This document shows, piece by piece, positions 47,585-52,448 of a stretch of DNA of 64,000 nucleotides (its first letter is position 1; each line of letters starts with the position of its first letter). The position numbers and the translations under genes were made by a program. Below the pieces are notes generated by a model. That model ran no database searches and was not told the DNA's origin. It worked only from the letters and a program-made list of their open reading frames with translations. Source of the DNA: Sphingobacteriales bacterium 44-15 (GTDB lineage Bacteria > Bacteroidota > Bacteroidia > Chitinophagales > Chitinophagaceae); contig MKWG01000037.1 of the NCBI GenBank assembly GCA_001899685.1, positions 245,777 to 309,776 of the forward strand, given 5' to 3'.

Positions 47585-48682
47585 ATGCCTCTATATATGG
47601 ATTTTCATCACATTGAAAATGTTACGGTAGAAGATGTGAAAAGAGCACATATGGCAGACGTTGCCATCCAGGATAAATATGGTGTGCGATATCTTCAATT
47701 TTGGGTAAACCAGGAGGCCGGTGCAGTATTTTGCCTGATTGAAGGTCCTGATCCGGAAACCTGTGAAAAGGTGCACCAGATGGCACATGGCAATATAGCC
47801 TGTGCATTAACAGAAGTTGAGACCGGGTTTTATGAAATGATGATGGGTACGGGGCATGCTGTAAATGACCATGGACTCGTTCAGAAAGAAAACGGTACGC
47901 TTGATACAGGTTACAGGACAATACTTGTAGTTTCTTTGTATGGCATCACCAAAGCCACTGCATCAAGCGATCTTTCAATGCTGCTCACGCCAAACTGGGC
48001 GAGAAAAATAGTCCGGGAGCAAATGGAAAGGTTCGCAGGGAGGCATTTAGCCTGGGATGCCGACGACAGCCTTATGGCGGCTTTTGATGATGCAACAGGT
48101 GCTGTTTATTGCGCTCTGGGTATCAAAAAAGCGCTTGAACAGTTTGAAGATAAACAACCGGATATTATTTTTAAAATGGGATTGAGCGCTTCACAGCCTG
48201 TAACAATGAAAGGTGATTTTTTTAGGGAAGCTATTAATTTAGGACATCGCTTAAGCTTAACTGCTCCGAACAATCAGATACTGGCTTGCGCTCTCATAAG
48301 AAAGATTTGCAAAAACGAAGATGTTTTTTCAGATAATTCTATAAAATCGCTGAATACAAAAGAGCAGGAGTTTATCTCTAATCTTATTTATGTAGCAGAG
48401 TCAAAGATATCAGACCAGCAGTTTGACCTGAATAAATTAAGCAATGAAATATGTATAAGCAGGCCACAATTGTATAGAAAAATAACAGCTTTAACCGGCC
48501 GTTCACCTAATGATTTTATTATTGATCTGCGCATGCAGAAAGCACTTTCCCTGCTTAGACAAAAAAAGCACGGAATAGCCGAAATAGCGTATGATTCAGG
48601 CTTTAACAGCCCTTCTTATTTTTCAAAATGTTTTGTTGAAAAATTTGGATGCACGCCGTCAACATTTTTAAAAAGGGTTTGA
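47585..48682 (+). CDS. AraC-family regulator with DUF4242 and degenerate class III cyclase-like domain
   Basis: 365 residues in three parts. Residues 1-88 are a DUF4242/nickel-binding-type domain (AIQDKYGVRYLQFWVNQEAG; conserved H64 and H68 in EKVHQMAHG). Residues 110-245 look like a class III nucleotide cyclase fold: RTILVVSLYGITK, DDSLMAAFDDATGAVYCALGI, KMGLSASQPVTMKGDFFREAINLGHRL. The first metal Asp is replaced by S117; D160 or D161 may keep the second, so catalysis is unlikely and a ligand-sensing role is inferred. Residues 262-362 are an AraC HTH (LSNEICISRPQLYRKI, IAYDSGFNSPSYFSKCFVEKFG). It precedes the sulfur/redox genes on the same strand. Confidence 0.85.
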   Translation: MPLYMDFHHIENVTVEDVKRAHMADVAIQDKYGVRYLQFWVNQEAGAVFCLIEGPDPETCEKVHQMAHGNIACALTEVETGFYEMMMGTGHAVNDHGLVQKENGTLDTGYRTILVVSLYGITKATASSDLSMLLTPNWARKIVREQMERFAGRHLAWDADDSLMAAFDDATGAVYCALGIKKALEQFEDKQPDIIFKMGLSASQPVTMKGDFFREAINLGHRLSLTAPNNQILACALIRKICKNEDVFSDNSIKSLNTKEQEFISNLIYVAESKISDQQFDLNKLSNEICISRPQLYRKITALTGRSPNDFIIDLRMQKALSLLRQKKHGIAEIAYDSGFNSPSYFSKCFVEKFGCTPSTFLKRV

Positions 48683-48874
48683 TGCTTCTGTAAGCAGGTT
48701 TACCGGAAATTTTATTCCCCCGCATGTTATCCTTAGCATTACCAGTATACTTCTCTGGGTGCATGAACATATTTTACAAGTCTTTGAACAGTTTTTGCTA
48801 ACATATGGCTTGCCTCCTCGTCTAATTTTGATACAGGAGAATTTTTAAGGTACACTTTTTCAATTCAGAAGTCT

Positions 48875-49561
48875 ATGTCCAACTCATACATAAAACCGCG
48901 CAGGAAATTTCTGCAATCACTTACCCTGGGCGCCGCTGCATTAGGAACCACGGGCCTCACAATATCTATAAATGCGTCAGCCGGTAATACAGGTGGAAAG
49001 CACAACACTGATCCTGAAGCATGGATGAAGAAAATCACCGGTAAACACCGTATCGTGTATGATGTAACCGAACCGCACCATCAGTTTCCCTTTGCATGGC
49101 CGCGTGTGTTTCTTTTGACCAATGAGGCTACAGGCACACCGCCAAATGAATGCAGTGTAGTAGTTATCCTCAGACACAATGCCATCCCATTTGCTATGGA
49201 TAATCGTCTCTGGGAAAAATACAAATTCGGTGAAATGTTTCATGTAACTGATTTGAACACTAATGAAACTGCGATGAAAAATCCTTTCTGGAAGCCGGCC
49301 CCCGGTACATATAAATTTCCCGGTTTCGGAGCAGTATCCATTGGCATCAATGAATTGCAGGAAAGTGGTGTACAGTTTCTGGCTTGCGATGCTGCTTTAA
49401 CAGTTTACAGTGCCGTAGCTGCAGGCGAAAATGGAAATGCCGCAGAGGTGAAAAAAGAATGGACTGAAGGCATATTACCCGGTATACATATCGTTCCATC
49501 TGGTGTTTGGGCTGTAGGACGGGCACAGGAAAAAGGATGTGGTTACTGTTTTGTAAGGTAA
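48875..49561 (+). CDS. Tat-exported DsrE-like protein
   Basis: 228 residues. A twin-arginine signal is present: PRRKFLQSLTLGAAALG. The folded part has DsrE-like features, including VVILRHNAIPFAMDNRLW and the C-terminal FLACDAALTVYSAVAAG, followed by LPGIHIVPSGVWAVGRAQEKGCGYCFV. In DsrE-family proteins the cysteine near such a position can carry sulfane sulfur; here the candidate is in FLACDAAL. Export by Tat suggests it folds before secretion, and maybe binds a cofactor. It begins a run of three periplasm-directed sulfur-type genes. Function inferred. Confidence 0.7.
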   Translation: MSNSYIKPRRKFLQSLTLGAAALGTTGLTISINASAGNTGGKHNTDPEAWMKKITGKHRIVYDVTEPHHQFPFAWPRVFLLTNEATGTPPNECSVVVILRHNAIPFAMDNRLWEKYKFGEMFHVTDLNTNETAMKNPFWKPAPGTYKFPGFGAVSIGINELQESGVQFLACDAALTVYSAVAAGENGNAAEVKKEWTEGILPGIHIVPSGVWAVGRAQEKGCGYCFVR

Positions 49562-49606: not shown

Positions 49607-50593
49607 ATGAACCCATTTAAGAAATTAGTCCTGATAATCCTGGCGGGTGAAATGTCAGGCGGGGTATCCTGCAGATCGAATATTGGCACCGGGGCCGGAA
49701 ACAGTATAACACTAACGGACACTCTAAAATCAGTATTATACCTCTCACCAGATACTTCAGAAATACGACAATCGCCACAAGCGGATCTAATCTGGTATGG
49801 AAGAGAGCTGGTAGCTAATACACGAAAATATCTCGGTCCTGCAGGTATTGTAGCGCAGGTTTCGAACCAGCTAAACTGTCAGAACTGCCATCTGGAAGCA
49901 GGCACAAAAGCTGCAGCATACAGTGTCAATTTTTTGGGAGTAGCGGCAAACTATCCTCTGTACAGGTATAGAAGCGGCATGCTGGAAACGATACAATTCA
50001 GAATTAATGATTGCATGATGCGTAGCATGAATGGAAAGTCACTCGACACTGCAGGACGGGAAATGAAAGCGATTGTTGCATACATATTGTGGATTGGCAA
50101 AGATATCCCAGCCAAAATAAAACCTATCAATTCACAGATTGAACAACTGCCGTATCTGCAAAGAGCAGCAGACACAATAAATGGTAAAAAAGTTTATACT
50201 GCTAAATGCCAGTTATGTCATGGTGTAAACGGCGATGGCGGCTACAGTGTAGATGCTGCAATATATTATCCGCCGCTGTGGGGAGCAGGCAGCTATAATA
50301 CAGGAGCTGGTATGTATCGTTTAAGTAGTTTAGCCGGATTTGTTAAAAACAACATGCCCTTTGGCGTTAATCATGGCCAAAGCCAACTGAGCAATGAGGA
50401 ATGCTGGGATGTGGCGGCATTTATTAATGCTAAACCCAGGCCTTATAAAAATTTTCCGGGCGATTGGCCGGATATAAGTAAAAAAGCTATTGATCATCCC
50501 TTTGGCCCTTACGCTGACAGCTTTTCAGAGCTACAGCACAAATACGGGCCATTTGAACCTATCGCAATTAAAAGAAAAAAGAAATTCAATTAA
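49607..50593 (+). CDS. Diheme cytochrome c, thiosulfate dehydrogenase (TsdA)-like
   Basis: 328 residues. A lipoprotein signal is likely (LIILAGEMSGGVSC, C22). Two heme motifs are visible: CQNCH at C91/C94/H95 and CQLCH at C201/C204/H205. Between them RINDCMMRSMNG (C136) matches the motif that in TsdA supplies the cysteine ligand of the active-site heme. TsdA oxidises thiosulfate to tetrathionate or works in reverse. The spacing of heme 1 and this cysteine (45 residues) fits the family as I recall it. It may feed electrons to respiration. It lies 11 nt before the DsrE gene. Confidence 0.8.
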   Translation: MNPFKKLVLIILAGEMSGGVSCRSNIGTGAGNSITLTDTLKSVLYLSPDTSEIRQSPQADLIWYGRELVANTRKYLGPAGIVAQVSNQLNCQNCHLEAGTKAAAYSVNFLGVAANYPLYRYRSGMLETIQFRINDCMMRSMNGKSLDTAGREMKAIVAYILWIGKDIPAKIKPINSQIEQLPYLQRAADTINGKKVYTAKCQLCHGVNGDGGYSVDAAIYYPPLWGAGSYNTGAGMYRLSSLAGFVKNNMPFGVNHGQSQLSNEECWDVAAFINAKPRPYKNFPGDWPDISKKAIDHPFGPYADSFSELQHKYGPFEPIAIKRKKKFN

Positions 50594-50603
50594 AAATACT
50601 ATC

Positions 50604-51029
50604 ATGAAAAAGAAAATTTTAGCATTTCTTACTGTACTCTTTTTGTTATTACACATACAAAATTCAATAGCACAAACCAATGAATACAAAGTAGTATTTG
50701 ATCTTACAAGTTCAGATACTACCGATCATCAAAGCCTCATCAGGTGGTTAGCCGGGATAAGTAAAGCCAATCCCAATGCCCAAATGGAAGTTGTGCTTTA
50801 TGGCCAGTCCTTGTCTATGATAACAAAAGGACAATCTATTGCCGCGAATGAAGTTGAAGCGCTGGCAAAAAATAAAAACATTGCTTTCCGGGTATGCGAA
50901 ATAGCGTTAAAAAAACATGCTCTTACAAAGTCAGATCTACTGGCGGGTGTAGAAACGGTGCCAGATGGCATTTCCGAAATTGTGCAAAAACAAGGTCAGG
51001 GCTGGGGCTATATAAAAGCCGGCAGATAG
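50604..51029 (+). CDS. Exported DsrE-family protein
   Basis: 141 residues from the ATG at 50604. That start is 11 nt past the cytochrome stop and gives a signal peptide (KKKILAFLTVLFLLLHIQNSIA). The frame extends upstream but only inside the cytochrome gene. The mature domain is DsrE/DsrF-like: EYKVVFDLTSSDTTDHQSLIRWL, MEVVLYGQSLSMITKG, IAFRVCEIALKKHAL and VPDGISEIVQKQGQGWGYIKAG. The candidate sulfur-carrying cysteine lies in RVCEIAL. Such exported DsrE proteins are common in Bacteroidota and other bacteria, but what they carry is unclear. Confidence 0.82.
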   Translation: MKKKILAFLTVLFLLLHIQNSIAQTNEYKVVFDLTSSDTTDHQSLIRWLAGISKANPNAQMEVVLYGQSLSMITKGQSIAANEVEALAKNKNIAFRVCEIALKKHALTKSDLLAGVETVPDGISEIVQKQGQGWGYIKAGR

Positions 51030-51068: not shown

Positions 51069-52448
51069 ATGTCAAAAGAAATAATAGGACTATTGGAAAA
51101 AAAGCTGCAAGGCAATGTTATTCTTCCATCAGATCCCTCCTACGATGAGTCCCGCAAAGTCTATAATGGTATGATAGATAAACATCCTGCCGCTATTGCA
51201 TATTGTAAGGATGTGGACGATGTAATTACCTGTGTAAACTTCGCCAGGGAAAACAACATGCTGCTGGCTGTTCGCAGTGGAGGCCACAATGCAGGCGGAC
51301 TGGGTATTGCAGATGATGCACTGGTAATTGATCTTTCCCTGATGAAAGAGATCAGGACAGATAAAAATTCAGAAACAGTTAAGGTACAGGGTGGCTGTTT
51401 GCTGAAAGACCTGGATGCGGCAACACATCAAATTGGCATGACCGTTCCTTCAGGAATATTCGGCACTACAGGCGTAGCAGGCCTTACATTAGGTGGTGGG
51501 CTCGGCAATCTTACCCGTTCTTTCGGGCTTAGCATTGATAATTTACTTGAAGCTGAAGTGGTACTTGCAAACGGCAAGCCTGTAAAAGCTTCTGCAAAGG
51601 AAAATCCTGACCTGTTTTGGGCTTTGCGCGGCGGCGGCGGCAATTTCGGTGTAGTGGTTTCCTTCACGTTTAAGCTATGCCCTGTACATACTGTATATGC
51701 AGGCCCCATGCTATGGGAGCTGGATGATACTGAGGAGATGATGACCTGGCATCATGAATTCATTAATAAAGCACCCAATGAGTTAAGCGGGTATTTTGCC
51801 ATATTAACTGTTCCGCCGGTTACTCCTTTCCCTGAACATCTTCATCTAAAAAAAATGTGCGGAGTAGTCTGGTGCTATGCCGGCGATATGGAAGAGGCTG
51901 AAGAAGTATTCAAACCCATACGAGCAAAGAAAACCCCTTCCCTGGATTTTGTTGGACCTATGCCTGTGCCGGTGCTTCAAACATTGTTTGATGCGTTGTA
52001 TCCACCGGGATTATTATGGTACTGGAAAGCCGATTATGTAAAAGATCTGAGTGCCGAAGCTATAAAACTGCATGTTAAATATGGAAGGCAACTTCCTACT
52101 CCTTTCAGCACTATGCACATGTATAATATCAGCGGCGTAGCGGCTGAAGTTGGTAAAAATGAAACCGCATGGAACTACCGCGGTGCAAATTATGCAATGG
52201 TAATTGTGGGGATAACGAATGACGCGGCTGAGAAGGAAAAAGTGACCAATTGGGCAAAGGAGTATTGGTCGGTCATGCATCCTTATTCGATGGGAGGAGC
52301 TTATGTGAACTTTATGATGGATGAAGGCGCGGATCGTGTAAAAGCAAGCTATGGAGATAATTACAAAAAACTGGCAGAAGTAAAAGCAAAATACGATCCC
52401 GGTAATTTATTCAGGGTTAATCAGAATATAAAACCAGCAGTAGTGTAA
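51069..52448 (+). CDS. FAD-binding oxidoreductase, berberine-bridge type
   Basis: 459 residues. The PF01565 FAD-binding domain is clear: YCKDVDDVITCVNFAREN, VRSGGHNAGGLGI with H73 as the expected covalent FAD histidine, GGCLLKDLDAAT and GVAGLTLGGGLGNLTR. No second linking Cys is present in the usual place, so linkage through His only is likely. The BBE C-terminal domain is visible as YGDNYKKLAEVKAKYDPGNLF. No signal peptide, so probably cytoplasmic. Members oxidise sugars, alcohols or amino compounds. It starts 39 nt after the DsrE gene, so it may share its regulation. Confidence 0.9.
   Translation: MSKEIIGLLEKKLQGNVILPSDPSYDESRKVYNGMIDKHPAAIAYCKDVDDVITCVNFARENNMLLAVRSGGHNAGGLGIADDALVIDLSLMKEIRTDKNSETVKVQGGCLLKDLDAATHQIGMTVPSGIFGTTGVAGLTLGGGLGNLTRSFGLSIDNLLEAEVVLANGKPVKASAKENPDLFWALRGGGGNFGVVVSFTFKLCPVHTVYAGPMLWELDDTEEMMTWHHEFINKAPNELSGYFAILTVPPVTPFPEHLHLKKMCGVVWCYAGDMEEAEEVFKPIRAKKTPSLDFVGPMPVPVLQTLFDALYPPGLLWYWKADYVKDLSAEAIKLHVKYGRQLPTPFSTMHMYNISGVAAEVGKNETAWNYRGANYAMVIVGITNDAAEKEKVTNWAKEYWSVMHPYSMGGAYVNFMMDEGADRVKASYGDNYKKLAEVKAKYDPGNLFRVNQNIKPAVV

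Follow-up and report, generated by a model that had tools for sequence, protein, structure and literature searches.

By computation, we find that a gene in the window (the whole 64-kb stretch of DNA analysed) encodes a DUF4242 domain, a class III cyclase fold that has lost catalytic residues, and an AraC-type helix-turn-helix (HTH), and that a family-conserved operator sequence, at an almost constant distance from a promoter box, follows the gene at a single site in the genome. We consider it quite likely that the protein is a one-component activator, with DUF4242 as its sensor, the cyclase fold as its transmitter and the AraC HTH acting on the predicted operator, and that it activates the adjoining Tat-cytochrome-dsrE-FAD operon. 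The features are collected in Table 1.

Table 1. Regulator gene, its domains, and the predicted control region and targets in the window
Feature	Coordinates	Strand	Basis or remark
Regulator gene: DUF4242 - degenerate class III cyclase - AraC HTH, 365 aa	47585..48682	+	
DUF4242 / SCO4226-like domain, residues 4-78	47594..47818	+	Pfam PF14026, 4oi6 fold, conservation
Cyclase-fold domain, about residues 107-245	47903..48319	+	S117 codon = 47933-47935
AraC-type HTH, about residues 263-365	48371..48679	+	HTH_18 at 285-364; Z to 3lsg_A
Predicted operator: two half-sites (ATGAAC..., TTTGAAC...) spaced 21 bp	48763..48797	+	motif score 23.1
Predicted -7 box TAATTTTG (consensus TAnnTTTG)	48823..48830	+	25 bp after operator
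Predicted target 1: Tat-signal protein, weakly thiosulfate-dehydrogenase-like	48875..49561	+	Tat signal by eye
Predicted target 2: SoxA/TsdA-like cytochrome c	49607..50593	+	PF21342, PF00034
Predicted target 3: DsrE-like protein	50601..51029	+	PF02635
Predicted target 4: FAD-binding (BBE-type) oxidoreductase	51069..52448	+	PF01565, PF08031

An earlier note on this DNA had read the three domains by eye from a 365-residue open reading frame. Its coordinates and length were borne out, and its reading of the DUF4242-type N-terminus, the class III cyclase region and the AraC HTH was right, because Pfam, sequence matches to the PDB and fold matches agree. Pfam placed PF14026 on residues 4-78 (E 3.4e-19; 69.2 bits, cut-off 28.5) and HTH_18 on residues 285-364 (E 7e-22; 77.9 bits, cut-off 33.6); it returned no cyclase model at E<=1, and no kinase or receiver domain in the 365 residues. 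In phmmer searches of the PDB, the middle part matched 3mr7 over residues 114-245 (E 1.3e-8) and Ma1120 (E 0.004). The earlier note had proposed structure prediction for residues 105-250, and an AlphaFold2 model built from a 96-row alignment (mean pLDDT 93.5, pTM 0.91) has the cyclase fold there: residues 107-271 align with 3mr7_B at Z 14.8 (VIA-align; rmsd 4.5, 154 residues). AraC-type domains match the model over residues ~258-365, the best being 3lsg_A over 261-363 (Z 16.6), and with HTH_18 this match identifies the two-helix-turn-helix domain of AraC/XylS regulators. For the first domain, Foldseek aligned SCO4226 (4oi6) with a TM score of 0.88 by target length and an rmsd of 1.0; SCO4226 is absent among the 50 VIA-align matches listed, all of which come from the other two domains. 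With photoactivated cyclases, whole-chain alignments gave an rmsd near 15, which is uninformative about any shared arrangement.

The earlier note had also suggested looking for the same layout across Bacteroidota, where it recurs with informative neighbours. It constitutes a family in Bacteroidota, Balneolota and Rhodothermota, from which 96 sequences were aligned. DUF4242 and most of the cyclase part were matched in 21 of 195 genomes of the window's own family, and at least 17 of 395 genomes of its phylum group had a match over at least 320 positions, the phylum counts being lower bounds because at most 5 candidates were scored per genome; among those 17, one matches over 1-321 only and one has an internal stop. 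A named collection yielded at least 544 related stretches, not all necessarily full-length, found by motifs that included an HTH motif, and the best 80 were kept. As labelled, these best 80 loci comprise 74 from Bacteroidota, 4 from Balneolaceae, 1 from Rhodothermaceae, and one in a MAG labelled Ectothiorhodospiraceae that may be mis-binned. Two such regulator genes lie in tandem in four genomes of one family, and Kriegella sp. EG-1 (L068) has three.

Alignment of the stretches that follow regulator stop codons revealed a repeated element of the TTGAAT type. In the window this is a 35-bp direct repeat, spaced at 21 bp, that lies shortly after the regulator gene and before the Tat-cytochrome-dsrE-FAD operon, and it has the best motif score on both strands of the 64 kb. 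The clade pattern, with up to 3 mismatches allowed, matched the organism's own 6-Mb genome once, at this operator, and the reversed control pattern gave 0 matches in the same genome. Close relatives carry homologous sites. Most likely the protein is a dedicated local activator, which in this genome appears to serve one local operon.

A motif model trained on the nitrilase clade alone was compared with shuffles and reached p<=0.05 in 44 of 74 other regions (20/35, 7/13, 7/13, 10/13). With 35-bp models built from three clades at a time and applied to the one left out, 59 of the 74 held-out regions scored above 95% of 866 control regions (5% expected; 11/12, 29/35, 9/13 and 10/14 per held-out clade), and 37 scored above 99%; against dinucleotide shuffles of the same 150 bp, p<=0.05 was obtained in 59/74 and p<=0.01 in 50/74. 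This cross-validation covered 74 of 82 regions, the regulators of the other 8 belonging to none of the four clades. Its start value had been set with every clade already in view; the nitrilase-clade-only model had no such start value and is therefore the stricter test. By controls and shuffles, 15 of the 74 held-out regions lacked a clear site. Among 28 further regulators not used in training, 20 exceeded the 99% control threshold, 12 of these sites having a -7 box at 23-25 bp; a clear site was lacking in the other 8, three of which come first in a tandem pair.

In-sample, 66 of 82 regions have a site, and in 56 of these TAnnTTTG (at most 1 mismatch; exact in 29) starts 24 or 25 bp after it, any other distance accounting for at most 4 cases. 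TAnnTTTG is the flavobacterial -7 box, located at -12 to -5 (PMC9723704, partial text). A box at these positions places the operator at about -71 to -37. These predicted sites thus have, by computation, the direct-repeat operator adjoining a promoter that characterises AraC/XylS regulators, and their position presumably resembles that of araI1-araI2. In the araBAD geometry, the site of an AraC-type activator is close to the promoter box and does not overlap it. The operator-promoter spacing that we observe is this AraC-activator geometry; it fits activation and is compatible with repression.

The four genes downstream are closely packed, with gaps of 45, 7 and 39 bp in the order Tat, cytochrome, DsrE and FAD; for DsrE, an ATG inside the listed frame 50490-51029 was taken as the start. 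The Tat protein had no Pfam match and scored 28.9 bits against NF052225, far under the NCBIfam cut-off of 300. A gene follows on the regulator's strand in 73 of the 80 best loci, where neighbours are mechanically called long ORFs and their families rest on Pfam/NCBIfam for one representative each and BLAST for the rest. These first genes encode FAD/BBE oxidoreductases (16), exported DUF4242 proteins (16), exported globins (9), nitrilases (6), cupins (5), the methanethiol methyltransferase MddA (4), a second regulator (2) and others (4), with 11 unidentified. Targets differ so widely between clades that no single ligand is implied. The FAD oxidoreductase is the commonest neighbour, found within the first four same-strand genes in 31 of the 80 best loci, and in the nearest relatives (L039, L040, L041 and G140) its gene directly follows the regulator. 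Most likely, therefore, the Tat-cytochrome-DsrE cassette was inserted between the regulator and the FAD gene, in the window's lineage. Of 12 FAD orthologues with at least 50% identity in a reverse search, 4 were near such a regulator by coordinates, and when the surrounding 1.5 kb was searched directly with residues 1-250, a regulator was found at 2 of the 12. Relatives of the Tat protein amount to 7 genes in 247 phylum genomes, and a regulator lies within 1.5 kb of only one, the window's own.

Other arrangements were seen around these genes. Within 1.5 kb of the other six Tat genes, a cytochrome gene is present in 4 and dsrE in 3. In Kriegella sp. EG-1, an operator-like site and then a cytochrome-tat-dsrE cassette come after the three tandem regulators (L068:6876-12615). 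Directly upstream of the regulator, L039, L040 and L041 have a second AraC-type regulator, absent in the window; by Pfam on the copy in L041, it has an ExsA-like N-terminal domain. An exported DUF4242 protein of a different subtype (YVIERE...), represented by L079:9192-9554 and 22 similar sequences, often comes directly after the regulator. These proteins keep C50 and H64 in 23/23 cases; they were rejected as copies of the sensor, having R at position 8 in 23/23, S at 25 in 23/23 and S at 22 in 22/23. The window's own genome also encodes an exported-looking tandem-DUF4242 protein (G000:C3:357748-358263; L005, L006) with an H/H/D/C/H/H motif in both halves, and several other members of the window's family have two-domain matches of a similar kind in their genomes.

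Within the regulators, conservation is highest in DUF4242, whose mean column identity across the 96 sequences is 0.631, versus 0.569 for the HTH and 0.395 for the cyclase part. H8, D25, C50 and H64 are present in 96/96, D6 in 95/96, H22 in 94/96 and H68 in 91/96, in keeping with the earlier claim that H64 and H68 are conserved. D6, H8 and C50 should face the helices carrying H22, D25 and H64, which makes a buried site plausible; this clustering is deduced from strand register and conservation, not from coordinates.

From these features we infer how the parts may work together. DUF4242 would be the sensor, and its D6/H8/H22/D25/C50/H64 set probably forms the site for a ligand, which may be a small compound that the target enzymes process; this site may also contain a metal. 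Ligand binding there would change the dimer. The cyclase fold, with its lost catalytic residues, is most likely the dimerising and signal-transmitting part and would carry the change to the HTH, which in turn is predicted to bind the 35-bp direct repeat at 48763-48797, recruit polymerase to the adjoining TAnnTTTG promoter and activate the Tat-cytochrome-dsrE-FAD operon.

Other accounts of the signal have to be weighed against this one, beginning with nickel, as the earlier note had proposed a metal input. SCO4226 of Streptomyces coelicolor (4oi3/4oi6) shares family and fold with window residues 1-78 and, in the alignment, H8, H22, D25, C50 and H64. Its Ni-2 ligand His23 corresponds to the conserved H22. 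Such clear homology would suit a nickel-responsive regulator that binds Ni2+ as SCO4226 does and controls nickel- or metal-related genes, but the details make this very improbable. SCO4226 is a stand-alone 82-residue protein whose Ni-1 ligands are Asp43/Ser46/His76, and it binds nickel at surface sites with a Kd of 10 uM (PMC4186839, partial text); in the three-domain window protein the Ni-1 positions are N42, A45 and T76, the equivalent of His76 being placed by register since the pairwise alignment ends at residue 72. Across the family, D is found at 42 in 71/96, S at 45 in 1/96 and H at 76 in 0/96. The window protein also scored 58.8 bits against the NF033706 equivalog (SCO4226 family nickel-binding protein), below the NCBIfam cut-off of 125, and no nickel uptake or export family was found among the identified neighbour types (11 of 73 first neighbours were not identified). 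Because the SCO4226 sites are weak surface sites and Ni-1 is lost in the window, nickel is a poor guess, and it was rejected as the leading ligand. The earlier note further proposed a nucleotide input, which would make the protein a two-input regulator: DUF4242 would respond to one ligand, while a nucleotide bound in the cyclase-fold pocket would act as a second, allosteric signal. The canonical class III set consists of two metal Asp, a purine-site Lys and Asp/Thr, and a transition-state Asn and Arg. At these six positions the window has S117, A156, D161, E215, N218 and R222; D161, N218 and R222 are kept (3/6) and the purine-site Lys and Asp are absent (A156, E215). The loss of the first catalytic Asp, which the earlier note had pointed out, is real: Ser117 stands where 3mr7 and the rhizobial relatives have Asp. 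Of the 14 rows in the window's own clade, 11 keep D161 and 6 have Asp at 117, and L044 (Rhodohalobacter sulfatireducens) has five of the six residues. For mycobacterial proteins that join a cyclase homology domain (CHD) to a LuxR HTH and lack some canonical residues, binding of ATP or cAMP, or a response to either, has been suggested (PMC4452763, partial text). All this would agree with a nucleotide signal, but across the 96 regulators the pocket varies freely: none has all six residues, 5 have both metal Asp together, and at position 117 the commonest residue occurs in at most 18. A conserved pocket, as a sign of nucleotide sensing, was thus not seen family-wide, and in each of the four clades the three domains rank in the same order, the cyclase part last in conservation. 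This weakest constraint favours a scaffold or transmitter role over a conserved nucleotide sensor, and we hold a nucleotide input to be unlikely.

Sensing of reduced sulfur or thiol compounds (sulfide, methanethiol or thiosulfate) is an alternative to which we likewise assign a low probability. C50 is invariant (96/96), a thiosulfate-type cassette follows an operator-like site in both the window and L068, and MddA comes directly after the regulator in 4 of 73 loci (L102 scored 342.8 bits against NF045656, above the cut-off of 270, and the remaining three were assigned by their similarity to L102); the sulfur theme of these loci is suggestive. However, most identified first genes are not sulfur genes, and reverse searches found a regulator within 1.5 kb of 1 of 23 MddA genes above the cut-off and, as noted, of 1 of 7 Tat genes. 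MddA and the sulfur cassette were therefore rejected as a general target, and sulfur is kept as a rival, not as a general theme. Two MddA genes (G223:C28:15034-16416 and G246:C6:37685-39895) stand beside 1405- and 1368-residue frames with an AraC-type HTH, perhaps hybrid two-component systems and another possible control of methanethiol methylation. The sign of regulation can also be questioned, since a site precedes the regulator itself in 4 of 80 upstream regions (L079, L081, L106 and L113), as might be expected of a repressor or autoregulator. So small a number led us to reject autoregulation through an upstream site, and in 56 of 66 regions the site ends 24-25 bp before the -7 box without overlapping it, as an AraC activator would have it; repression or autoregulation in place of activation is distinctly unlikely.

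Relatives of the regulators that lack the HTH bear on its origin. Among 25 plasmid records with a match, 16 contain one that spans 80% or more of residues 1-252; ten are from Rhizobium, four from Agrobacterium and one each from Ensifer and Azospirillum. Four of these 16 proteins were read (Ensifer, Agrobacterium, Azospirillum and Rhizobium); they end after the cyclase domain, have no HTH and keep the FTDI and GDG motifs, with Q instead of the transition-state Asn. The Rhizobium, Ensifer and Agrobacterium proteins are 31-34% identical to the window protein over most of residues 1-252, with the N-terminal domains in the same order, and rhizobial members are annotated 'nickel-binding protein' (e.g., WP_057206949.1). 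Within the window's phylum, one genome encodes a 275-residue DUF4242-cyclase without an HTH (G539). Inspection by eye gives Asp, Lys, Asp, Ser, Asn and Arg at its six positions, strictly five of six; it has N at the transition-state position where the four plasmid proteins have Q. The HTH-less rhizobial proteins and G539 keep both metal Asp, in contrast to the window regulator with Ser117. In a tree of residues 1 to ~252, one branch with support 100/100 separates 4 HTH-less proteins from 53 regulators; the tree takes in 53 of the 96 regulators and is unrooted, and from its midpoint the enzymes fall among the regulators. HTH-less DUF4242-cyclases are likely the parent form of the regulators. 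In the simplest history, such an enzyme would have been fused to an AraC HTH and would then have decayed, with loss of the HTH in the enzymes as the alternative; this direction is argued from function, as the unrooted tree does not show it. We offer as speculation, with little confidence, that a second-messenger enzyme has turned transcription factor here, a DUF4242-cyclase having gained an AraC HTH in the Bacteroidota lineage and lost its active site to a varying extent, and that the least decayed members (e.g., L044) may still bind or even cyclise a nucleotide.

Parts of this design have counterparts in known systems. AraC/XylS activators and the window protein have HTH_18 in common, together with a direct repeat of 21-bp spacing near the promoter; DUF4242 and the cyclase fold stand in place of a usual AraC effector domain. 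Bacteroidota hybrid two-component systems offer another comparison: the best other HTH matches in the organism's own genome, at 35-38% identity, lie in open frames of 974-1404 residues, and among solved structures the best HTH relative bears the name of a hybrid two-component protein, whereas Pfam found no kinase or receiver domain in the window protein. The mycobacterial Mclx proteins (Rv0386, Rv1358 and Rv2488c) combine a CHD and a C-terminal HTH in one chain, and two of the three lack some canonical residues, as the window regulator does (PMC4452763, partial text). By contrast, they belong to a different phylum and have a LuxR HTH and a possible AAA/NB-ARC region, with no DUF4242 named in that part of the source, and the window protein has an AraC-type HTH and a DUF4242 domain before the CHD. 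With this precedent, the new regulatory layout claimed in the earlier note stands as a combination with DUF4242 and AraC, not as a wholly new principle. In the literature searched, which covers subscription journals thinly, we found no description of the three-domain family, its DUF4242 and AraC combination or its operator, and the family is apparently undescribed so far.

The regulator family thereby gains a precise and cheap test, with one operator, one promoter spacing and one neighbouring operon per site. The orphan DUF4242 domain gets a context in which its ligand is screenable with a reporter. The gradation that runs from a DUF4242-cyclase in largely intact form to the decayed regulators makes the change from enzyme to transcription factor observable, and if a second-messenger enzyme did become a transcription factor in this way, the least decayed members might be proteins that bind DNA and have a nucleotide site of their own, gated by a ligand.
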